64,000 nt of DNA from Rhizobiaceae bacterium (lineage in GTDB: Bacteria; Pseudomonadota; Alphaproteobacteria; Rhizobiales; Rhizobiaceae), in assembly GCA_023953905.1 (NCBI GenBank), contig JAMLJA010000010.1:62001-126000 (forward strand). Direction: 5' to 3'. Below, piece by piece: positions 52,214-64,000 of the stretch (position 1 is its first letter; the number at the start of each line of letters is the position of its first letter). The translations under genes and the position numbers were made by a program. A model generated the notes under the pieces. The model saw only the letters and a program-made list of their open reading frames with translations, ran no database searches and was not told the DNA's origin.

Positions 52214-53130
52214 TTTCGTTCCTGAGCTCCAGATTTCTCAACGCCGCAGGCACACTCGTCGCAGCGGTGATCGCAACCTTCATCATGATCCGCATCGCGC
52301 CGGGCGACCCCGTTCTGGTGCTGCTTGGCGATCTCGCTTCACCGCAACAGATCGAGGCTGCACGCATCGAATACGGTCTCGATCTTCCGCTCTACGAACA
52401 ACTGTTCATCTATCTCGGCAAAGCCTTCTCACTCGACTTCGGCAATTCGATTATCCAGGGCCGGCCTGCAGTCGACATCGTCGCCCAACGCATGATGGCG
52501 ACACTGACGCTAGGCGTCGCGACCTTCGCCATCGTCACCGCGGTCGCCATCCCGCTCGGCCTGATCGCCGCACTCTACCAGAATCGATGGTTCGACAGAG
52601 CCACATCGAACACCTCGCTTGTCGTGCTCGGCATACCGGATTTCTGGCTTGGCCTCGTGTTCATCCTCTTGTTTGCGCGATGGCTCCAGATCCTGCCAAG
52701 CTCGGGCTGGTCGTCGCCGACCTCGATTATCCTGCCCGCGGTCACGCTGGCGCTGCCGCTGATCGCGCTCAACATGCGGCTGATGCGCAACGAGGCGATC
52801 GGCGTGCTGAGTTCGAACATGGTGAAGATTCTGCGGGCGAAGGGCGTGCCGACCCGGCGCATCATCACCCACCACGTGCTCCGTAACGCGCTGTTGCCGG
52901 TGTTGACCGTGGGCGGGGTGCAGTTCGGCCATCTGCTCGGCGGAGCGGTGATCGTGGAGACGGTGTTCGGCTGGCCGGGGCTCGGCAAGGAACTCATCAC
53001 GGCGATCGGCTATCGGGACTATGCCGTGGTTCAAGCATGCATCTTCGTGATGACGTTTCTCGTCGTCACGATAAATTTCGCGGTGGATTTCAGCTACAGG
53101 CTGATAGATCCGCGCCTGAGGCGTATCTGA
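52210..53130 (+). CDS. Dipeptide-type ABC transporter permease (DppB-like)
   Basis: The GTG at 52210 overlaps the ATPase stop (GTGA). The 306-aa permease begins with RFLNAAGTLVAAVIATFIMIRIAPGDPV, the DppB pattern, and has the EAA loop ILRAKGVPTRRIITHHVLRNALLPVL. It channels the substrate through the inner membrane with the DppC-like partner 2 bp downstream. Confidence 0.92.
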   Translation: MISFLSSRFLNAAGTLVAAVIATFIMIRIAPGDPVLVLLGDLASPQQIEAARIEYGLDLPLYEQLFIYLGKAFSLDFGNSIIQGRPAVDIVAQRMMATLTLGVATFAIVTAVAIPLGLIAALYQNRWFDRATSNTSLVVLGIPDFWLGLVFILLFARWLQILPSSGWSSPTSIILPAVTLALPLIALNMRLMRNEAIGVLSSNMVKILRAKGVPTRRIITHHVLRNALLPVLTVGGVQFGHLLGGAVIVETVFGWPGLGKELITAIGYRDYAVVQACIFVMTFLVVTINFAVDFSYRLIDPRLRRI

Positions 53131-53132
53131 GC

Positions 53133-54002
53133 ATGGCGATGACGATATCCACGGCACACAGGTCGCGTTCGGCGCTCTCGGTCACCGAAATATTGGCTGT
53201 CGCCGTCGTTCTGCTCTTCGTCGTTGTTGGCGTGGCGGGACCCAATCTGGTCGACTTCAACCCTGCGGCGACCGACACGTCGGCGCGTCTGAAGCCACCT
53301 ATGACGATGCTCGCGGACGGGTCCGTTGCCTGGTTCGGCACCGATGCGGTCGGGCGCAACGTGGCAAAGCAGGTCATCTATGGCGCCCGCATCTCGCTCA
53401 TCGTCGGCTTCACCTCGGCGCTGCTCGCTGCCGCCTTCGGCGTCGTGATCGGCGTCTGGGCCGGATGGGCCGGCGGCAGGACCGAGCAATTCCTGATGCG
53501 GATCGTCGATGTGCAGCTCGCCTTTCCGTCTATCCTCATCGCGGTGTTTCTGGCCGCCTTCATCGAACCCAGCCTGCTGTCGGTAATCGTCATCCTCGCC
53601 GTCACGCGCTGGGCCATCGTAGCCCGCGTCTCGCGCGCCATCACGACGCGGTCCCTGACGAGAAGCTATGTCGAGGCGGCCATCATCTCCGGTGACAGTG
53701 CCTGGAGGGTGGTGCGGGACTGCATCCTGCCCAATCTCTGGATACCTTTGCTGATCCTGATGTCGGCTGAACTCAGCCTGATCATTCTGGCCGAAGCCTC
53801 GCTCGGCTTCCTGGGCCTCGGCACGCCGATCGATGTTCCCTCCTGGGGCCGCATCATCTCGTCGGGTCGCAATTACCTTGCCAATGCATGGTGGATCGCG
53901 ACGCTCCCGGGCGTCGTCATCGTTCTGGTGGTGGTCTCGATCGGCGTCGCCGGCGAGATCTTGCGCCGGCGCCTGGGGCGCGGCGTCATCACCGCCATTT
54001 GA
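53133..54002 (+). CDS. Dipeptide-type ABC transporter permease (DppC-like)
   Basis: I choose the ATG at 53133, 2 bp after the previous stop, giving 289 aa; the open frame upstream is overlap. It has an N-terminal membrane segment (ILAVAVVLLFVVVGVAGP), the WFGTDAVGRNV motif of the DppC branch, and the EAA loop EAAIISGDSAWRVVRDCILPN. It ends the transporter set, 18 bp before the LhgO-type oxidase. Confidence 0.92.
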   Translation: MAMTISTAHRSRSALSVTEILAVAVVLLFVVVGVAGPNLVDFNPAATDTSARLKPPMTMLADGSVAWFGTDAVGRNVAKQVIYGARISLIVGFTSALLAAAFGVVIGVWAGWAGGRTEQFLMRIVDVQLAFPSILIAVFLAAFIEPSLLSVIVILAVTRWAIVARVSRAITTRSLTRSYVEAAIISGDSAWRVVRDCILPNLWIPLLILMSAELSLIILAEASLGFLGLGTPIDVPSWGRIISSGRNYLANAWWIATLPGVVIVLVVVSIGVAGEILRRRLGRGVITAI

Positions 54003-54020: not shown

Positions 54021-55235
54021 TTGATCCATGATTTCATCGTCGTTGGCGGCGGCATTGTCGGGCTTGCCACAGCTCTCGAACTGCTGCGCCGACGGCCCGG
54101 GGCGAGCCTCGTGCTCCTGGAAAAGGAGGATCGCGTCGCCTTTCACCAGACGGGCCACAACAGCGGCGTTATTCATGCGGGAATCTACTATGCGCCTGGA
54201 AGCCTCAAGGCAAAACTTTGCTTGGAGGGCCTGCACGCTACCAAGGCGTTCTGCGACGAGCATGGCATTCCCTACATCACCTGCGGCAAGCTTATCGTTG
54301 CGACCAATGAGGGCGAGATGCAGCGCAACGAAGCCCTGTTCGAGCGGGCCACTGCCAACGGTCTGAGGCTGTCGAAGATCGGGGCCGAAGCGTTGCGTGA
54401 GATCGAGCCCAACATAAGAGGCACAGGCGCGCTGCTCAGCCCCGAGACGGGCATCGTCAGCTACAGGCAGATTTGCGACAAGATGGCCGACCTACTCAGG
54501 AGCGCTGGTACGGAGATAAGGCTCTGCACCACGGTTACCGATATTCGCGACGGGGCCGACCGTGTTACGGTCGTTGCGGGTGGGGAAAGTCTTGAGGCGC
54601 GTCATGTTGTTTGCTGCGCTGGCCTCCAGTCGGATCGCCTGGCGCGCATGGCCGGCGCGCCGGTCGATTTCCGCATCGTGCCCTTCCGCGGCGAGTATTT
54701 CGTCCTGCCGCCGGACAAGAACGAGGTCGTCAGGCATCTGATCTATCCCGCGCCGGATCCATCCATGCCGTTTCTGGGCATTCATCTGACACGGATGATC
54801 GACGGCACGGTCACCGTCGGTCCCAATGCGGTTCTGGGCATGGCCCGCGAGGGATATCCATCCCTGTCGTTCAATCTGCGAGACGCGGTAGACCTCGTGA
54901 GCTATGCCGGATTCTGGAAGCTGGTTGCAAAGAACTGGCGTCACGCAGCAGGAGAGATGCGCAACTCAATATGGCGCTCGAGCTACCTTCGCGAATGCCA
55001 GAAGTACTGTCCGAGCCTCACTCTCGATGATCTCAAACCGTACCCGTCGGGCATCCGCGCACAGGCGGTGACTACGAAGGGTGAGGCAATCCACGATTTC
55101 CTATTCGCGGAAACTCGCCGCACGCTCCATGTCTGCAATGCGCCGTCGCCGGCAGCCACATCGGCCATTCCAATTGGCCGGATGATCGCCGACAAGGTGC
55201 TGGCGAGCGGCAGCAATAGTGGTGAAAGAACTTAG
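54021..55235 (+). CDS. lhgO: L-2-hydroxyglutarate oxidase (LhgO family)
   Basis: The TTG at 54021 has GGAG about 9 bp upstream. The 404-aa flavoenzyme starts with IHDFIVVGGGIVGLATALELL (FAD-binding), followed by the family's HQTGHNSGVIHAGIYYAPGSLKAKLC (about residues 37-62) and the C-terminal FLFAETRRTLHVCNAPSPAATSAIPIG. LhgO oxidises L-2-hydroxyglutarate to 2-oxoglutarate, passing electrons to the quinone pool. In this cluster it may act on L-2-hydroxyglutarate or on a related 2-hydroxy acid made from the imported sugar acid. Confidence 0.88.
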   Translation: MIHDFIVVGGGIVGLATALELLRRRPGASLVLLEKEDRVAFHQTGHNSGVIHAGIYYAPGSLKAKLCLEGLHATKAFCDEHGIPYITCGKLIVATNEGEMQRNEALFERATANGLRLSKIGAEALREIEPNIRGTGALLSPETGIVSYRQICDKMADLLRSAGTEIRLCTTVTDIRDGADRVTVVAGGESLEARHVVCCAGLQSDRLARMAGAPVDFRIVPFRGEYFVLPPDKNEVVRHLIYPAPDPSMPFLGIHLTRMIDGTVTVGPNAVLGMAREGYPSLSFNLRDAVDLVSYAGFWKLVAKNWRHAAGEMRNSIWRSSYLRECQKYCPSLTLDDLKPYPSGIRAQAVTTKGEAIHDFLFAETRRTLHVCNAPSPAATSAIPIGRMIADKVLASGSNSGERT

Positions 55236-55685: not shown

Positions 55686-56435
55686 TCAGCGCGATCTTCT
55701 GTTCATGAATGCGGTACGAGCCTGGGCGTGCTCTGGCGAGGCAAGCAGCGCAAGGTATGAGCGCATTTCGCTTTCGAGAGCCTCATGAAGGGAATTTGCG
55801 CCGGCCGCCAGCAACGCCCTGACATGCGTCTGATAAAGAGGCGCGAACTGCGACAGTTCAGTCGCCCGATCGATCGCGACCGGCAGGAGACTATCCGCAT
55901 CGACGATATCGTCCACGAGCATCAGGGATGCCGCCTCCTGCGCGTCGACGACACGCCCGCCCAGCAGAAGCCGACCAGCTCGCGACGCGCCGACACGCCG
56001 CTGCAATGTCCAGCTAAGTCCCAGATCGGGCGGCAAACACATCCGCGAGAACGAGGCGCAAAACCGCGCCGACGGATCGGCGACAATCTGGTCGCAACAC
56101 ATTGCGAGAGAAAACCCGGCTCCGAACGCATCCCCCATCACGGCCGCGACCGAGGGCTTCCCCGTTACCAGCGCACGTACGACATCGTGCAGGATTCCCA
56201 TGCGTTGTCGGGCTATCTCCGGGTCGGGTGTCATTGCGGCAATATCGCCGCCAGAACAGAATGTGCCGCCGGCACCGCCAAGCACAATCGCCCGAACGGA
56301 AACGTCCGTCTGCGCGGCAAGGATCGCTTGCCGCAATTCGGCACGCAATCCGTCAGTCAACGCATTCTTCTTGGCCGGGACATTCATCCTCAGCACAAGA
56401 ACTCCGTCGCTCATTTCTTTTTCGAGTTCCGTCAT
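55686..56435 (-). CDS. Crotonase-fold protein lacking the hydratase glutamates
   Basis: The 249-aa protein has the crotonase core (VRAIVLGGAGGTFCSGGDI and AVMGDAFGAGFSLAMCCDQIVAD), but the two glutamates of enoyl-CoA hydratases are missing: GCE is GFS, and the second block reads SFSRMCLPPDLGLSW with no Glu. An Asp in PPDLG is a possible acid-base residue. Isomerase, dienoyl-CoA isomerase or lyase activity is more likely than hydration. It is the last gene of the minus-strand operon, its start overlapping the MaoC-like gene stop. Confidence 0.85.
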   Translation of the reverse strand: MTELEKEMSDGVLVLRMNVPAKKNALTDGLRAELRQAILAAQTDVSVRAIVLGGAGGTFCSGGDIAAMTPDPEIARQRMGILHDVVRALVTGKPSVAAVMGDAFGAGFSLAMCCDQIVADPSARFCASFSRMCLPPDLGLSWTLQRRVGASRAGRLLLGGRVVDAQEAASLMLVDDIVDADSLLPVAIDRATELSQFAPLYQTHVRALLAAGANSLHEALESEMRSYLALLASPEHAQARTAFMNRRSR

Positions 56436-56824
56436 GCTAGCTGCCCCTCACCGCCCATCATCACAAGACGGCCACTCAGCACACGGGTGCCGGACAAGGT
56501 GGCGACCCAAATCTCGTACTCGTTTCCAGTGGGGGAAAGCCGGTTGCCGCCTGTTTGGATCGTTTCCCCTACTTTCACGGGCGCGGAGAACCGGATGTCC
56601 AGATAGGGCGTCATTTCCGAATCCGCCATCGACTGGTCGATGGCCTCAATCAGCAAGTTGAGCGCCATCGTGCCATGGGCGATCGGGCTGCCGAACGGCG
56701 TCGTGGCAGAGAATTCATGGTCCAGATGGAGCGGATTGTAGTCGTATGTCAGCGCGGCATAGGCCTCTGCCATGGCAGGGCTTGTTTCGAGCGTCAGTTC
56801 AGTGATGGAAACGGGATATGCCAT
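56432..56824 (-). CDS. MaoC-like hotdog dehydratase
   Basis: The 130-aa protein starts at the ATG at 56824 (MAYPVSITELTLE); the frame upstream is overlap. It has the R-hydratase motif YDYNPLHLDHEFSATTPFGSPIAHGTMALNL with the catalytic Asp and His pair (about D34 and H39). It lies 10 bp after another hotdog protein; the two may form one two-chain hydratase, as in steroid and bile-acid pathways. Confidence 0.85.
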   Translation of the reverse strand: MAYPVSITELTLETSPAMAEAYAALTYDYNPLHLDHEFSATTPFGSPIAHGTMALNLLIEAIDQSMADSEMTPYLDIRFSAPVKVGETIQTGGNRLSPTGNEYEIWVATLSGTRVLSGRLVMMGGEGQLA

Positions 56825-56834
56825 GCTGGTTACC

Positions 56835-57230
56835 TCACGCGGCCCAAATGGAGCGGATCGTTCCGTCAAGGACGACCGAGTCAACGCACCGACCCTCAAC
56901 CTTGAAATCCACCCAGTAGCGACCTTTCTTTTCCTGCTTGGCCGCGCACGAAACGCTGAAGACAACCGTATCGCCCCAGCGCAATTCCTTTGACAGGGAG
57001 CCCAGACTTTGGGCGGCATGGACATTGCCGTTGGGGCGAGGTTGGATGGCGCGGATATACGCCTCCATCATTCCAGCGACGAGCATGCCACGCGGCAAGC
57101 CATCTCCTTCCACCGCGCCAAAGATTGTTTCCCATCGCGCGCGCCTTGCTCCGTCCATCGGCACCGCAATCTCGCCGAAGGCCAGACCCGGAGAGAAACG
57201 ATCGAATGTCCACATCTCGATCTCCGTCAT
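56835..57230 (-). CDS. MaoC/FAS1-like hotdog domain protein (partner hydratase half)
   Basis: The 131-aa protein has the FSPGLAFGE opening of MaoC-type domains and the LPRGMLVAGMMEAYI hot-dog helix, followed by LGSLSKELRWGDTVVFSV. It lacks the catalytic D-x-x-x-H, so it is probably the non-catalytic partner of the MaoC-like protein encoded next to it. The stop is 10 bp from the partner's start, and the gene overlaps the NIPSNAP-like stop by ATGA. Confidence 0.75.
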   Translation of the reverse strand: MTEIEMWTFDRFSPGLAFGEIAVPMDGARRARWETIFGAVEGDGLPRGMLVAGMMEAYIRAIQPRPNGNVHAAQSLGSLSKELRWGDTVVFSVSCAAKQEKKGRYWVDFKVEGRCVDSVVLDGTIRSIWAA

Positions 57231-57907
57231 GGGGCCCGCTCCGGAAACGCGGTGGAAAAGTTCGTCATTGGGACGCCGTAGCCAAGCGGCCGCATGACGT
57301 GACTTTGAGCGAAATCGCCCGGATAGAGCGTTGCTTCTCGACTACGGGTGGCGAGACGCTGCGCGTCGTCGGGCCAGGCAAGGAACACGATACGACTGTC
57401 GGTCGGGAGCCCTATCCAGCCATCGAAAACGCCCAGGACTTCCGCCCCGTGTTCCTGCGCTGCCCCAACGCGCGCGGCGAGAAGGGCGTCGTCTTCAAAC
57501 TGCCTTCCCCGATAGATGCGCATTTCGTGGATGCCCGAAAGTTCTGCCACCGGACCTTCGGAATGGAATCTGGGCCAGACGGCGGACGGCCGAAGTATCA
57601 ACACGCTTGGCCGATCGACGCGCTGCTGGCCCGCATAGTTTGTCGAGAGTTTCTCCTGCCAGACCGGGTCGGCATAAAAGCGCGTCCAGGCCGCCATGCG
57701 GGCATCCAGAGACTCCCAGGGCAGAATATAGCCGAAAAGTGGAGCGTATGGGCCCGCGTAGGATTCCCAGAAGCCCAGCGGACGAGACACGCCGCACTTT
57801 GCGAACAGCGGCGGCACCTGAACGCCTAGCAGGTCGTGAAAGACCGGCATTCTTGTCGGCAGCATCTTATAAAGGCGCAATTCGTAGTAACGGCTCATGC
57901 CGGTCAT
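57227..57907 (-). CDS. NIPSNAP family protein, copy 1
   Basis: The 226-aa protein carries two ferredoxin-like repeats: MSRYYELRLYKMLPTRMPVFHDL at the start and GIHEMRIYRGRQFEDDALLAARV in the middle; the segments ILPWESLDARMAAWTRFYADPVW and VFLAWPDDAQR are typical. Such proteins fold as dimeric alpha/beta barrels and occur in terpene, aromatic and steroid gene clusters, usually without a known reaction. Both its ends overlap neighbours by ATGA. Confidence 0.8.
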   Translation of the reverse strand: MTGMSRYYELRLYKMLPTRMPVFHDLLGVQVPPLFAKCGVSRPLGFWESYAGPYAPLFGYILPWESLDARMAAWTRFYADPVWQEKLSTNYAGQQRVDRPSVLILRPSAVWPRFHSEGPVAELSGIHEMRIYRGRQFEDDALLAARVGAAQEHGAEVLGVFDGWIGLPTDSRIVFLAWPDDAQRLATRSREATLYPGDFAQSHVMRPLGYGVPMTNFSTAFPERAP

Positions 57908-58536
57908 GGCGCGACACTCTTCACGAGATATTGGATCATCCGATCATGGTAGGGCCTGCCCAATGCGTCGATCTCGGCCTGTCGCTGCCTAACGACACCC
58001 TCGTCGCGATCCATTGCTCGCCAGCCCTCGTGAAGCGCCTGAAAATCCGGCCATGCCAGAATGGTTACAAAATTCGGCCTGTTCGGGCCGAGCACGGCGT
58101 CGAACTGTCCCACGACGCGGCCGCCCGCTGTTGCAATCTGCTGGGCGACAATGTTCCAGAAGTCCGCTCCCGCTGCCGCCTGGCTTCCGTTTACGACCTC
58201 CTGGACGCGAAACTCGAACAACTCTCCGGTATTCCACTTCCCCGAAAACTCCGGCGCGCCGCGCGTCGGCGTGACGATCCAGTGTTCGCATTCTGCGAAT
58301 GCCTGGGACGTTGTCCGCCAAGCAGGGTCGGCTGCCAGCGGGTCGTGAATCCGGTCGCGCGTCTCCAGGTCCGGCCACTGCGACAGCATCAGGAAATGTG
58401 CCGGTCTTGCGCCGCCATCCGGTTGCCACAGACCAAGTCGGTGCTGTCCCATTCGCGGGGTCAGCCCTTTCAAGGCGGCAAGGGCTTTTGACCAGGCACC
58501 GGGCGCGCATTGATAGAAACTCAGTTCGTACAGCAT
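57904..58536 (-). CDS. NIPSNAP-like dimeric alpha/beta-barrel protein, copy 2
   Basis: From the ATG at 58536 (MLYELSFYQCAP) it is 210 aa. Two half-repeats are visible: FLMLSQWPDLETRDRIHDPLAADPAW and FVTILAWPDFQALHEGWRAMDRDEG. It resembles copy 1 in layout, though with different residues. Two tandem copies in one operon suggest a heteromeric barrel or two steps on related intermediates. Confidence 0.75.
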   Translation of the reverse strand: MLYELSFYQCAPGAWSKALAALKGLTPRMGQHRLGLWQPDGGARPAHFLMLSQWPDLETRDRIHDPLAADPAWRTTSQAFAECEHWIVTPTRGAPEFSGKWNTGELFEFRVQEVVNGSQAAAGADFWNIVAQQIATAGGRVVGQFDAVLGPNRPNFVTILAWPDFQALHEGWRAMDRDEGVVRQRQAEIDALGRPYHDRMIQYLVKSVAP

Positions 58537-58541
58537 CTGCG

Positions 58542-59318
58542 CTAACCCACGAACGTCCCGCCATTCACGTCCAGGATGGCGCCCGAAATATAAGAAGCCA
58601 TCGGCGTGCACATCATCGCGATCGGCCAGCCAAGCTCCGACGGATCGGCGAGCCGCCCGATCGGCAGCGCATTTTCGTCAAACGCTACGGTCTGCGAGAC
58701 TTTCTGGAACAGGGGGGTGCGCACGACTCCAGGAGCGACGCCGTTGACCAGCACGCCCTTGCCCACGGCGCGCCGCGACAGCCAGCGAACCAGCGTATGA
58801 GCGCCACCCTTGGACGCGGCATAGGCCGCATAGGTCAAGGAGGCTTCGTTCGAGGCGCCGCCGTTGCGTCCGGCGGCGGAACCGACGATGACAATATACC
58901 CCTCGCCCGCTTGCGCCATCTGGTCGATGATCGCGGCAGCCAGTATCACCGGGGCTCGCACATTGATGTGCATGACGAAATCGAACGCTTCCTCCGGCGA
59001 CTGGTTCGGAAGGCCCTGAAACACGCCGGCCACGTTGGCGAATGCGAAATACGGCCCGCGGGAAATGAGATCGCGGCAATAGCTCTCGTCGCGCAGGTCA
59101 CCCTGCACGGCGCTTACCGTCGTTCCCTCGCCTGCAAGCTCGTCCCGCAGTTCGTCCATCGGGACGATGTCGGCAAGAACGAGATCCGCGCCCAGTTGCG
59201 CCAGACATAATGCGGTGGCGCGGCCGATCCCGTTCGCAGCGCCGGTGACGAGAACCCGACGCCCGCTCAAGCTGAGCCGTTCAGGAAGTGACTGTGCCTC
59301 ACGCGCTGTTTTCGTCAT
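58542..59318 (-). CDS. Short-chain dehydrogenase/reductase (SDR)
   Basis: The ATG at 59318 has AAGGA 7 bp upstream and gives 258 aa. The classical SDR motifs are VTGAANGIGRA (cofactor), NVAGV, a Ser in IVGSAAGRNGG, and the catalytic YAASK. A C-terminal IGRLADPSELGWPIAMMCTPMASYISGAILDVNGGTF is typical. It oxidises or reduces a hydroxyl/keto group with NAD(P)H. It follows the ABC ATPase by 26 bp and precedes the NIPSNAP-like pair. Confidence 0.9.
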   Translation of the reverse strand: MTKTAREAQSLPERLSLSGRRVLVTGAANGIGRATALCLAQLGADLVLADIVPMDELRDELAGEGTTVSAVQGDLRDESYCRDLISRGPYFAFANVAGVFQGLPNQSPEEAFDFVMHINVRAPVILAAAIIDQMAQAGEGYIVIVGSAAGRNGGASNEASLTYAAYAASKGGAHTLVRWLSRRAVGKGVLVNGVAPGVVRTPLFQKVSQTVAFDENALPIGRLADPSELGWPIAMMCTPMASYISGAILDVNGGTFVG

Positions 59319-59344
59319 CGAATATCCTTCCAGGTTCTCGGCGT

Positions 59345-60856
59345 TCAATGTACCGCCGCATACATGATCTGTTGTTCAGTCGCTGTTTCCGGAGAAAACT
59401 CCTCGACAATCTTGCCCGCTCGCGACACCAACACCCTGTCCGACATCGCCATGACCTCCGGCAGGTAGGACGAGATCAGGATCACGGCATACCCTTCGTC
59501 GGCCAATGCGTTGATCGCCTTGTGAATTTCGGCGATTGCCCCAACATCTACCCCGCGCGTCGGCTCGTCGAGGATGACGATGCGCGGATTCAGCTGGAGC
59601 GAGCGGGCGATGACGACCTTCTGCTGGTTGCCGCCCGACAACTCGACCACACGCGCCCCCTCGTCGATCGTCTTGATGTCGAGCTTGCGCTTCCAGTGAT
59701 GAAACAACGAAACCAGACGCGAGGAAGGCAGGGCCCAGAACCGGGCACTGCGCGCCATCGCTGCCACTCCCAGATTGTCGGCAATGGACATGGTTTCGAA
59801 GAAGCCGTCATGCTTGCGGTCCTCGGTGACGTAGGCAATACCGTCGAACATGGCCTGTCTCGGCACACGATACCGGACGGGCCTTCCTTCCAGCATCACA
59901 TCGCCGCCATAGAAGAAGTCGCGCTTTGCCAAACCCGCGATGATCCTCGCGGTTTCCGTTCGCCCGGATCCGACGAGCCCGAACATGCCGGTCACCTGAC
60001 CCGCGTAAACCGTGAAAGATGTATTGCGCACGACCTTTCCCATGGACAGGTTGCGCACGCTCAGGACTTCCTTTTGGCGCGGACGCACCTTGCGGGGCGG
60101 CACGTCCTGAACATCGCCCGGTCGTGACCGGCCGACCATATCGGAGACGATACGCGCGCGATCGTACTCGGTCACCTGCCCGCTTGAGACGACCTGGCCA
60201 TCGCGCAGAACCGTTATCCGATCCGCGATCTGCAGTGCTTCTTCAAGCGCATGCGAAATGAACACGATTGCGACGCCGTCCCTTCTCAGCCGGGCCAAAA
60301 GGGCGAAGAAATGAGACTTTTCCTCGGGCGTAAGGGTCGCCGTCGGTTCGTCGAAGATGATGAGACGCGCCTTCTGGCGCACGGCGCGCGCGATCTCCAC
60401 CATCTGCTTGCGGGCGCTGCCGAGGCTTGAAACGAGCGCTTCCGGACTGACCTCGAAATTCAAGGAATTGAGGAATATCTGCGCCTCTATCTCGAGCTTG
60501 CGCTTGCGGTTGAACCAGGTTTCGTCACCGAGGAACAGGTTCTGTGCGACGGTCATCGACGGCACCAGGCTCGTTTCCTGATGGACCATCACGATACCGC
60601 TGCGCAAACCGTCAATGGGCGAGCGAAAGCTAACGGGCTTACCGTCGAGGAGGATCGCCCCCTCGGTGGGCTGCGTAACGCCGCTGATCAGCTTCGACAG
60701 CGTGGATTTGCCTGCACCGTTTTCGCCCAACAACGCGTGGCATTCGCCGGCTCGGAACTCCAAGTCCACATTGCGCACCGCGGCGGCCGAATGATAATAT
60801 TTCGAGATCCCCTGAAGCCGCAGCATCGGCTTCGCACCATTCGCCGGGCCGGTCAT
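59345..60856 (-). CDS. Sugar-type ABC transporter ATP-binding protein (RbsA/MglA-like, two ATPase domains)
   Basis: I place the start at the ATG at 60856, with GGGAGAGG upstream, for 503 aa; the frame is open to 61054 but overlaps the propeller gene. The N-terminal ATPase has Walker A GENGAGKST and signature-type SLGSARKQMVEIARAV. The second half has a degenerate Walker A (LVGSGRTE), LSGGNQQKVVIARSL and Walker B VILDEPTRGVDVG. It energises the permease half of the fusion protein at 61926. No binding protein or second permease is in the window. Confidence 0.9.
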   Translation of the reverse strand: MTGPANGAKPMLRLQGISKYYHSAAAVRNVDLEFRAGECHALLGENGAGKSTLSKLISGVTQPTEGAILLDGKPVSFRSPIDGLRSGIVMVHQETSLVPSMTVAQNLFLGDETWFNRKRKLEIEAQIFLNSLNFEVSPEALVSSLGSARKQMVEIARAVRQKARLIIFDEPTATLTPEEKSHFFALLARLRRDGVAIVFISHALEEALQIADRITVLRDGQVVSSGQVTEYDRARIVSDMVGRSRPGDVQDVPPRKVRPRQKEVLSVRNLSMGKVVRNTSFTVYAGQVTGMFGLVGSGRTETARIIAGLAKRDFFYGGDVMLEGRPVRYRVPRQAMFDGIAYVTEDRKHDGFFETMSIADNLGVAAMARSARFWALPSSRLVSLFHHWKRKLDIKTIDEGARVVELSGGNQQKVVIARSLQLNPRIVILDEPTRGVDVGAIAEIHKAINALADEGYAVILISSYLPEVMAMSDRVLVSRAGKIVEEFSPETATEQQIMYAAVH

Positions 60857-61929
60857 ATCCTCTCTCCCAGCTTTGAAAGTGGTAGCGACAAGATCTCCCC
60901 GGCACCGATACTGGTCGCCAGCAGCCTGTCGGCATCCCGCAACACGCTTCTTATTCCGTGCCGCGTGCCGTCGGCGCGTGAAAACAGGCTGTATTGCGCG
61001 GCCCAATCGTGGCTGAACCGGATCACCAGCCCGATCGACATGCTTGGCGCCCAAGGCTTGAGCGTTCCCAAGGAACGTTGAGCGCCCTGCTGCATCGGCT
61101 CGAGAAAGCTGCGCGCCCGCGTCAAGGATGGCGCAATCCAGTGCGCCGGGTCGATTTCGGACAACATGCGGTTGCGGTACTCATCCTCGCGAAGCACAAA
61201 CTCGACGAGCTGATTGCGGGGGGCCATGACCGCAAGCCAGGCACCCCCACCGTCAGCGGAAATCAGGCGCGCCGGATACCCCGGGAGATCGCTCGCCAGC
61301 GGTTTCGTACGCCCGCCCGGCAGAACCTCCACCAACCTATGACGCCACGCTTCCGCAACGACGACGGACCCGTTGGACAGCGACAGGACACCACATGGAT
61401 ATGCCAGCCCGTGCGAAAGCTTGGTCGCAGCGGCCGTTCGGGGATCCAGCCGCCAAAGCGATCCCTCTCGACGCTTCTCGAGCAGGTCGCGCGTCCACGC
61501 CCCAAGACCATGCTTCGAGGAGCCTATACAGGCAAGAATCGCACCCTCCCGATCAAAGGCAAGAGCGGTGATGTCCCCATCGAGGGTGCCGATCCGCGAC
61601 GTAGCGTCAGGTCGCAATCCGACCCGTAGCAGCGTTCCTCCTGAAAGAGCGACGACTCCGCTATCCCCGCCATCGCCAGCGGCGGCTGTGATTTCGGTGC
61701 CATGGTCCTCGACCAGCACCGCCTCACCGGGTCCGATGATCGCCATTCTCTTCGTGCCGCTTGTGAACTGGAGCTGGCCTCCGACCTTGAAAAGGTTGTC
61801 GGGGGCATCCACCCGAAGAAGCGCATCGCCCTCTTCAAGCGCATTGTTTGCGTCGTACGGACCGTCGAGCGGCGGAATTGCGGGGGATGCCCCGCCAATT
61901 CCACGCCAGCGCTGCCACCAGGTCGTCAT
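60853..61929 (-). CDS. Beta-propeller protein, SMP-30-like but with lost metal ligands
   Basis: The 358-aa protein has several blade-like segments. Two match the propeller half of the neighbouring fusion: AYPCGVLSLSNGSVVVAEAW and LPGYPARLISADGGGAWLAV. At the positions of the metal-binding Asn and Asp of the SMP-30 family are C179 and A220, so the metal site has been lost. No signal peptide is visible. It overlaps the ATPase gene (ATGA) and the fusion gene on either side, and may be a non-catalytic subunit or sensor. The exact family is uncertain. Confidence 0.65.
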   Translation of the reverse strand: MTTWWQRWRGIGGASPAIPPLDGPYDANNALEEGDALLRVDAPDNLFKVGGQLQFTSGTKRMAIIGPGEAVLVEDHGTEITAAAGDGGDSGVVALSGGTLLRVGLRPDATSRIGTLDGDITALAFDREGAILACIGSSKHGLGAWTRDLLEKRREGSLWRLDPRTAAATKLSHGLAYPCGVLSLSNGSVVVAEAWRHRLVEVLPGGRTKPLASDLPGYPARLISADGGGAWLAVMAPRNQLVEFVLREDEYRNRMLSEIDPAHWIAPSLTRARSFLEPMQQGAQRSLGTLKPWAPSMSIGLVIRFSHDWAAQYSLFSRADGTRHGIRSVLRDADRLLATSIGAGEILSLPLSKLGERI

Positions 61930-63986
61930 CGCGCGTCACCCCAATAGCTCCGGTATCCCGACCAATCCTGGCCGGCCTCGGGCAAGTCAATCATTCCGAT
62001 CCTGTTGTTGCGCAGGCCTCCGATGAACAGCCGTCCTTTGTGCTCGCGCATCGAGGTGACATGCGAATGCGCTTCGCCGGTGGGATCCCACAAGGATTGC
62101 AGCACCCTTCCCTCCGCGTCGAAGCGAATGAGGCACCCAGAATTCGTATTGGCAAAAAGGCAGTTGTCGGGCGCGACCCGCTTGATCATCCGTTCGCGAA
62201 CCTTGGGCATTTCCAGCATCAGGTCGAAAGCGGGTGAACGCATCCCGACCAGCGCGCACCAGAATGTACCGTCTGAGGCACGATTGATGTTGTCGGGATA
62301 GCCAGGCAGATTTTCGATGACGACCTCGATCTGCCCGATCTTGGGCCCATCATACCAGTATCGCAGAATCCGGCACGCCCAGGTCGAGGCTAGGAGCAGC
62401 GACTGGCCGTCATTGGTCATGCAAACGCCGTTGGGGAAGATCAGGTTGCGCGCGACGGTTCGCGTCGAGCCGTCCCGCGGATCGAAGCAGATGAGCCGGC
62501 CATTTCCGCGCATTTCAAGCGCCTCGTTGAGCCAGTCGCTCAGTTCATAGCGGACGGACGGATCGGTGAAGAAAATCCGGCCGTCCGGGGCAATGTCCAG
62601 ATCGTCGGCCATCTTGATTTTGGAGTCGTCGATTATCGAAAAGCGGCTGCGATTGGTTTCGTTGGTAAGACACGTGACCTCACCGTCACGGGTGGTACGG
62701 TAGAGGCCCATACCCGCCACACACGCAACGATGCTGCCGTCCCGGTCGATCGCCATGCCGAGCGGATGACCGCCGATGTGGGCAACGATCTCCTGTCGCG
62801 AATAATCAGGGGCAAGAAAGCGCACGATGTCGCCATGTCTGGTGCCGGTGTAAAGATGGTCGTCCTCATCAAGGATGACATCCTCTGGGCCCTCAAGCTG
62901 ACGCAAGCCGATCGCCGATACGCCGGCCAGTCCCTGATTCATGGCATAGGGCGTGGCAGCTCCAGGCTGGCTGTCGACGAGTGGCGGCATGACGAACCGC
63001 ACCGGCGCCACATAATTGCGCGCGAGAACCTTGTGGCGGTTCTTGGCCCAACGAATATCCAGTATGACCGCGACGATCAGGACGGCGCCGAGTACCATCG
63101 AGCTCCCGCCGCTTGCCAGCCCCATTCGAAGCATGCCGTTGGTGATGCAGATGACGGCGGTCATCCCGAGCAGGGCCTTGGCGATGGATCCGCGACCGCC
63201 CCCAAGGCTTATGCCGCCCAGCACGATCCCCGTGATGACGATCAGCTCCATGCCGACGCCGGTTGACGAGCCGGCAGTGTTAAGGCGCGCGGCAAAGAAG
63301 AAGGCGCCGATTGCCGTCAGCGCGCCACCCAGCATGAAGGTCGCGGCCACGGTCCTGCGAACATTGATGCCGGCATTGAATGCGGACCTGCGCGAGCCGC
63401 CGACCGCCTGAACATGCCATCCTCCCCTGAGCCGTGTGAGGTAGACATGGCAGCCAGCCGCGACGAGGAGCGCGGCCACAAATGAACTCGGCAGGCCCAG
63501 TATTTCCCCGTCGCCCATGAAGTCCCAAAGCGCGATGCCGTTCACCTGATAGTTCTGGAGGAGCGTGGCGGAATAGTTGAGCGCAAGGAGATCGAAAATC
63601 GACCGGAAGATGACGAGGGTGACGAGCGTCGTCAGGAAGGCGCGCAGGCGCCGGTAGCCGACCAGATACCCGTTGATTGCACCAAGGCCGATGCCAAACG
63701 CGATCGTCAGCGGAAAGGCCAGCGCCACGTGGAGCTGGAACTTGAAAACAAGCGCGAGTGCCACGAAGTTGCACAACGCAAATGCAGATCCGATGCTGAG
63801 ATCGATGCCGCCCGCAATCATGATGATTGCGACGCCCATGCCTACGAGCAGGTATTCTCCGAGGACGCGTGAAAGATCCGACAGGCTGGCCGCAGCGAAG
63901 AAACCCGGGGTCAGGATGAACAGCGCGACCGCCGTCACCCCGAGAAAGGCGGTGGGGATCAAAGTGTCGATCCAGTCCTTCGACAA
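61926..63986 (-). CDS. Fusion of ribose-type ABC permease with SMP-30/strictosidine-synthase-like beta-propeller
   Basis: The single 686-aa frame has two parts. Residues 1-320 are a BPD_transp_2 permease (GVAIIMIAGGIDLSIGSAFAL, GINVRRTVAATFMLGG, GIVLGGISLGGGRGSIAK). Residues 355-680 are a six-bladed-type propeller: LEGPEDVILDEDDHLYTG, FPNGVCMTNDGQSL with N519, and GYPDNINRASDGTFWCALVG with D565. These are the metal ligand positions of gluconolactonases. Termini of this permease class are normally cytosolic, so the propeller is expected inside. It starts with TTG at 63986, GGGAGAGG upstream, near the window edge. Frame continuity is complete with no stop between the halves. Confidence 0.87.
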   Translation of the reverse strand: MSKDWIDTLIPTAFLGVTAVALFILTPGFFAAASLSDLSRVLGEYLLVGMGVAIIMIAGGIDLSIGSAFALCNFVALALVFKFQLHVALAFPLTIAFGIGLGAINGYLVGYRRLRAFLTTLVTLVIFRSIFDLLALNYSATLLQNYQVNGIALWDFMGDGEILGLPSSFVAALLVAAGCHVYLTRLRGGWHVQAVGGSRRSAFNAGINVRRTVAATFMLGGALTAIGAFFFAARLNTAGSSTGVGMELIVITGIVLGGISLGGGRGSIAKALLGMTAVICITNGMLRMGLASGGSSMVLGAVLIVAVILDIRWAKNRHKVLARNYVAPVRFVMPPLVDSQPGAATPYAMNQGLAGVSAIGLRQLEGPEDVILDEDDHLYTGTRHGDIVRFLAPDYSRQEIVAHIGGHPLGMAIDRDGSIVACVAGMGLYRTTRDGEVTCLTNETNRSRFSIIDDSKIKMADDLDIAPDGRIFFTDPSVRYELSDWLNEALEMRGNGRLICFDPRDGSTRTVARNLIFPNGVCMTNDGQSLLLASTWACRILRYWYDGPKIGQIEVVIENLPGYPDNINRASDGTFWCALVGMRSPAFDLMLEMPKVRERMIKRVAPDNCLFANTNSGCLIRFDAEGRVLQSLWDPTGEAHSHVTSMREHKGRLFIGGLRNNRIGMIDLPEAGQDWSGYRSYWGDAR

Positions 63987-64000
63987 GACCTCTCCCAGCA

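Follow-up and report, generated by a model that had tools for sequence, protein, structure and literature searches.

A gene in which an ABC importer permease is joined to a strictosidine-synthase-like (SSL) β-propeller is present at one end of the 64,000-nucleotide stretch of Rhizobiaceae DNA analysed here (the window). The fused gene, permease2::SSL, belongs to a cassette with the gene order permease1, binding protein, permease2::SSL, SSL2 and ATPase, and no exception to this order is found in 89 fusion copies at 86 loci. The second propeller, SSL2, is encoded as a free protein and has lost its metal site. In the reading favoured here, which has about an even chance of being right, the fused propeller would hydrolyse a lactone or ester at the inner face of the membrane, with SSL2 as its non-catalytic partner.

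The uninterrupted frame that the first-pass annotation described as joining a permease to a propeller is present on the (−) strand at positions 61926-63986. Its size was correctly given as 686 amino acids, and residue numbers below are those of this frame, but the frame is cut by the window edge and the full gene encodes 718 amino acids (Table 1). By comparison with homologues, the extra N-terminal part is common to them. Pfam places BPD_transp_2 (PF02653) at residues 38-307 and SSL_N, Str_synth and SGL at residues 346-581. Against PF02653 (cut-off 26.8) the fused gene scores 99.3 bits and permease1 scores 81 bits. In the profile search the permeases score well under all curated equivalog cut-offs, and none of the curated sugar equivalogs reaches its cut-off. 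As to the type of propeller, the strictosidine-synthase-like assignment made earlier stands, but both Pfam and fold comparison place the domain nearer to SSL than to SMP-30, which had also been proposed. Public records label the fused gene 'SMP-30/gluconolactonase/LRE family protein' and the partner gene mostly 'hypothetical protein'.

Table 1. Features of the window operon, the fused protein and a propeller-free sister system. Positions are those of the window unless a locus prefix is given.
Feature	Position	Strand	Remarks
BVMO	L007:12192-13637 (outside window)		Best PDB match cyclohexanone monooxygenase, E 1.8e-68; fingerprint FxGxxxHxxxW
permease1	L007:11209-12195 (outside window)		PF02653
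Binding protein	L007:10146-11171 (outside window)		Peripla_BP_4, PF13407 139 bits; RbsB-like
Fused gene permease2::SSL propeller	61926..64000	(−)	718 aa; ATG beyond window edge, at window coordinate ~64082 (L007:10083)
CUT2/RbsC-type permease domain	63012..63986	(−)	Residues 1-325; 10 predicted TM segments; N and C termini predicted cytosolic; Pfam, AlphaFold2 helices, K+R counts
SSL six-bladed propeller domain	61929..62954	(−)	Residues 345-686; Pfam, structure comparison
Metal position 1, E368	62883..62885	(−)	E in 89/89 homologues
Metal position 2, D461 (N in related enzymes)	62604..62606	(−)	D in 76, N in 13 of 89
Metal position 3, N519	62430..62432	(−)	N in 89/89
Metal position 4, D565 (= DFPase D229), followed by N566	62292..62294	(−)	D in 88/89; N566 in 89/89
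SSL2, free second propeller	60853..61929	(−)	358 aa; metal site lost; ATGA overlap with fused gene
RbsA-type two-domain ATPase	59345..60856	(−)	503 aa, counted from the ATG of the ATGA overlap with SSL2
SDR-family dehydrogenase	58542..59348	(−)	Overlaps ATPase stop
Two NIPSNAP-domain proteins, tandem	57904-58611 and 57227-57907	(−)	Pfam
131-aa protein, MaoC-like dehydratase, enoyl-CoA hydratase/isomerase	55686..57230	(−)	Operon end; Pfam
Sister permease2::ATPase fusion	L142:4433-6973 (G764:C14)		846 aa, RbsA-type ATPase; also L130

The operon is read from the (−) strand in the order BVMO, permease1, binding protein, permease2::SSL, SSL2, ATPase, SDR, two NIPSNAP genes, the gene for the 131-amino-acid protein, MaoC-like dehydratase and enoyl-CoA hydratase. 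ATGA overlaps link BVMO to permease1, the fused gene to SSL2 and SSL2 to the ATPase, and a TTGA overlap links the ATPase to the SDR. The RbsA-type ATPase, SDR and CoA-ester enzymes previously listed as neighbours of the fused gene are all found in the operon by Pfam. The ATPase has two ABC_tran stretches, with XylG/AraG/RbsA as its top NCBIfam matches; the 131-amino-acid protein has no Pfam match. Among the scanned operon genes no hydrolase other than the tethered SSL was recognised. The BVMO, NIPSNAP and MaoC genes do not recur near other cassettes of the locus set. Upstream of the BVMO, outside the window, are the genes of a TRAP transporter (DctM, DctQ, DctP; L007:14623-17533), and plasmids L028, L116 and L118 also carry TRAP genes in the vicinity of the cassette. 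Elsewhere in the window, positions 54021-55235 encode a putative FAD-dependent oxidoreductase that resembles L-2-hydroxyglutarate oxidase and adjoins an ABC permease at 53037-54002.

The fusion is widespread. A search of other genomes for the same architecture, as the first-pass annotation had advised, found it in more than 100 loci. Full-length fusions at 41-57% identity are present in 11 of 61 related genomes (the window's own included), on 15 plasmids and at 79 or more genome loci. In sampled genomes, 9 of 385 from the class and 11 of 398 from the phylum contain a full-length fusion. Among the hosts are Rhizobiaceae, Bradyrhizobium, Roseobacteraceae, Variovorax, Bordetella, Paraburkholderia, Alcanivorax and Pantoea. 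Fused propellers of alpha-, beta- and gammaproteobacteria, with roughly 50% sequence identity, share the conserved metal positions. The 89 fusion copies represent 76 complete cassettes and 13 truncated by contig ends, and the 12 annotated plasmid loci display the identical five-gene order. Of 77 cases, 64 have the start of SSL2 inside a 4-base overlap with the fused gene. A frameshift or assembly artefact joining two genes is excluded by these independent full-length copies from separate assemblies and finished plasmids, and its probability is practically nil. On the tree the window copy forms a long lone branch, its nearest relative being at most about 56% identical. Four regions (L039, L066, L077 and L141) carry two mutually diverged propeller cassettes each, which in L141 are consecutive.

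The location of the fused propeller is indicated by two features, and these agree with the cytosolic placement proposed earlier. With ten transmembrane segments assigned on the modelled helices by analogy with the generally known layout of RbsC, permease2 has approximately 17 Lys/Arg residues in inside segments, six of them in the C-terminal segment alone, and none in outside loops. The second feature is a propeller-free sister system (genome G764, locus L142; also L130), in which a relative of permease2 is joined straight to the ATPase and is accompanied by permease1 and a binding protein. As the sister's ATPase must be cytosolic, the same junction in the cassette is expected to be cytosolic too. 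A cytosolic propeller is thus supported by sequence, and a periplasmic one is disfavoured on both counts.

Three metal ligands had been named for the fused propeller, the E of a GPED motif, N519 and D565. These are correct, the first being E368, and each is kept in 88-89 of the 89 homologues; the fourth member of the site, D461 at position 2, was missing from that list. Eight free-standing bacterial SSLs also have D at this position, and the term 'intact metal site' is therefore appropriate for the fused branch, but because position 2 is mostly D and not N, metal affinity or chemistry could differ. A single fused copy of the 89, in Acidisoma cellulosilyticum (L084), has Ala for Asp at position 4. 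The AlphaFold2 model of the fused protein (mean pLDDT 86.6) displays a confident six-bladed propeller, which compares with TGW6 (8kg3) at Z 35.6 and 2.4 Å over 279 residues, and with the bacterial lactonase RPA3624 at Z 30.5. TGW6, the closest solved structure, is reported to be a plant IAA-glucose ester hydrolase, and no calcium was seen at its site (PMC10958001). Most SSL proteins keep four metal ligands and are likelier to be hydrolases than synthases, according to a review (PMC4215206), and the fused domain retains the ligands that are present in most SSLs and absent from characterised strictosidine synthases (PMC4215206). The fused propeller is therefore a putative metal-dependent hydrolase, either a lactonase or an esterase.

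SSL2 was overlooked in the first-pass annotation, and it must be explained by any mechanism. The gene is always retained, but its product has G, A or S at metal position 4 in 83 of 83 copies and Asn at position 3 in only 17 of 84. Given the loss of the fourth ligand in every copy, SSL2 is, by sequence, a pseudoenzyme and non-catalytic. Its model (pLDDT 91.3) is again a six-bladed propeller, with Z 30.2 and 2.7 Å over 269 residues against TGW6. Residues 275-300 show peak conservation (0.73 versus 0.54 overall) yet the lowest model confidence, and we read this segment as a candidate partner-binding loop. In Brucella pituitosa (L071:12067-13172), SSL2 is broken into frames of 253 and 115 amino acids while the fused gene is intact; this is possibly a sequencing error.

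The transporter part of the cassette resembles the CUT2 sugar importers RbsABC, AraFGH, LsrABCD and YtfQRT-YjfF, with which it shares a Peripla_BP_4 binding protein, BPD_transp_2 permeases and an RbsA-type double ATPase. Two different permeases are also found in LsrC/LsrD. The cassette differs from these importers in the C-terminal propeller of its permease, in the second propeller gene that is always present, and in its neighbours, many of which are CoA-ester and alcohol or aldehyde enzymes. The propeller shares the six-bladed fold and four conserved metal positions with the SSL branch of the N6P superfamily (TGW6, RPA3624), but it is tethered to an ABC permease, has mostly Asp as the second ligand and has an obligatory pseudoenzyme partner. 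In enzyme-transporter fusions such as SulP-carbonic anhydrase and LplT-Aas the enzyme is joined so that the solute is changed beside the membrane; these are secondary carriers without a pseudoenzyme partner, whereas the cassette is an ABC importer. Fusions of an enzyme to the permease of an ABC importer seem to be rare. In degradative mevalonate operons, of which Pseudomonas mevalonii provides an example, HMG-CoA reductase and HMG-CoA lyase occur together. Eight cassettes share a TIGR00532 reductase and HMG-CoA lyase with such operons, but they use the propeller-bearing ABC cassette. No description of the cassette was found in the open literature searched, whose coverage is thin for subscription journals. 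Each half of the fusion is a known family; as far as the open literature shows, the permanent association of an ABC importer with an active/inactive SSL pair is undescribed.

In the proposed mechanism, the binding protein would hand over the solute to a CUT2-type importer with two different permeases, and the permease1/permease2 pair would carry it inward with the RbsA-type ATPase. The tethered propeller would open a lactone or ester at the inner face to give a hydroxy acid, which would be trapped and then handed to the CoA-ester enzymes of the operon. The most likely place of SSL2 is next to the catalytic propeller, as its partner, or beneath permease1. In the window, the SSL would hydrolyse a Baeyer-Villiger lactone. 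Such a lactone may arise inside the cell, in which case the substrate of the enzyme need not be the molecule that is taken up. Another explanation is that the propeller is an ordinary pathway hydrolase, tethered for amount and place, which acts on an intermediate made in the cytosol and is uncoupled from transport. The BVMO and SDR of the window operon would indeed make a lactone after uptake, and the propellers are dispensable in that the sister system at L142 lacks both. A mere pathway enzyme, however, would be expected to vary with its pathway, whereas the fusion and SSL2 are kept together with the transporter even where the surrounding pathway genes are wholly different. An uncoupled hydrolase is considered unlikely.

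It is also conceivable that the propeller is a cytosolic sensor of the imported compound or of a downstream metabolite and throttles transport by trans-inhibition, SSL2 being a second binding module. SSL2 is conserved despite a metal site lost in every copy, which means that at least one propeller acts without catalysis, and a segment that is the most conserved and yet the least confidently modelled alone is as expected of a partner-binding loop. On the other hand, the four metal positions are kept in nearly all 89 fused copies, and ligand sensing would not need them. C-terminal regulatory domains with trans-inhibition are found in MalK, MetN and ModC, but these are located on the ATPase and not on a permease. 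A sensory role is likewise regarded as unlikely. A purely structural role is very improbable. In this case both propellers would lend stability to the heterodimeric permease/ATPase complex or serve as docking sites for pathway enzymes, and the metal too would be structural. Propellers are common interaction platforms and SSL2 is non-catalytic by sequence, but conservation is centred on catalytic-type metal positions, and the sister locus indicates that the transporter can exist, and the assembly form, without propellers.

The neighbouring genes offer clues to the solute. The lactone logic attributed earlier to the gene context is borne out by the BVMO in the window operon and by HMG-CoA reductase and HMG-CoA lyase elsewhere. 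Among 205 neighbouring proteins at 43 dereplicated loci, the commonest Pfam assignments are SDRs, class III CoA-transferases, crotonases, acyl-CoA ligases and aldehyde/alcohol dehydrogenases. There is no constant partner in this set, and one common substrate for all cassettes is not supported. The BVMO and SDR of the window operon suggest production of a lactone from a cyclic alcohol or ketone, and the solute taken up by the window system is probably an alicyclic or terpenoid compound (an alcohol, ketone or lactone). As a counterpoint, the RbsB-like binding protein would suggest a sugar-like ligand. Because the window copy is a long lone branch, its substrate is not transferable from relatives, and the TIGR00532 scan detected no degradative HMG-CoA reductase in the window's genome.

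A degradative HMG-CoA reductase is found beside the cassette in at least ten loci, seven in the locus set and three in genomes G022, G488 and G400. The TIGR00532 cut-off is passed by two profile-scanned reductases of the locus set and by those of the three genomes. HMG-CoA lyase is also present in 8 of the 10 loci, several of which hold a class III CoA-transferase and a crotonase. Five cassette genomes contain a reductase that passes the cut-off, and in three of them it is encoded on the same strand as the cassette at a distance of up to ~12 kb. The reductase label changes at least three times on the tree, with gain and loss not distinguishable, and the association is therefore not a single inheritance. 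The link covers a minority of cassettes, as most cassette loci have no HMG-CoA reductase within 10 kb. Locus L141 contains a compact operon of HMG-CoA reductase, the five cassette genes and HMG-CoA lyase only, where the step remaining for the propeller would be mevalonolactone to mevalonate. The solute in the ten or more loci is likely mevalonolactone or mevalonate. These mevalonate-linked copies are candidates for ABC-type uptake of mevalonolactone, for which a clear growth phenotype could be sought.

A more specific form of the favoured reading, which is tentative and on balance doubtful, has an obligate enzyme/pseudoenzyme pair at the inner mouth of the heterodimeric permease, mechanically coupling uptake to ring-opening, with mevalonolactone as one natural substrate. 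If true, this would represent vectorial metabolism in a primary active importer and a distinct class of ABC importer. With a conserved enzyme/pseudoenzyme pair on the transporter, coupling of transport to hydrolysis is directly testable. Induction of HMG-CoA lyase and a CoA-transferase has been reported at loci other than the cassette (PMC5789663), and no tie to the cassette was established for the SMP-30 gene described in PMC6710368. A gene of the carboxymuconolactone-decarboxylase family is found near the cassette in 12 loci, for example at L030:14645-15055.
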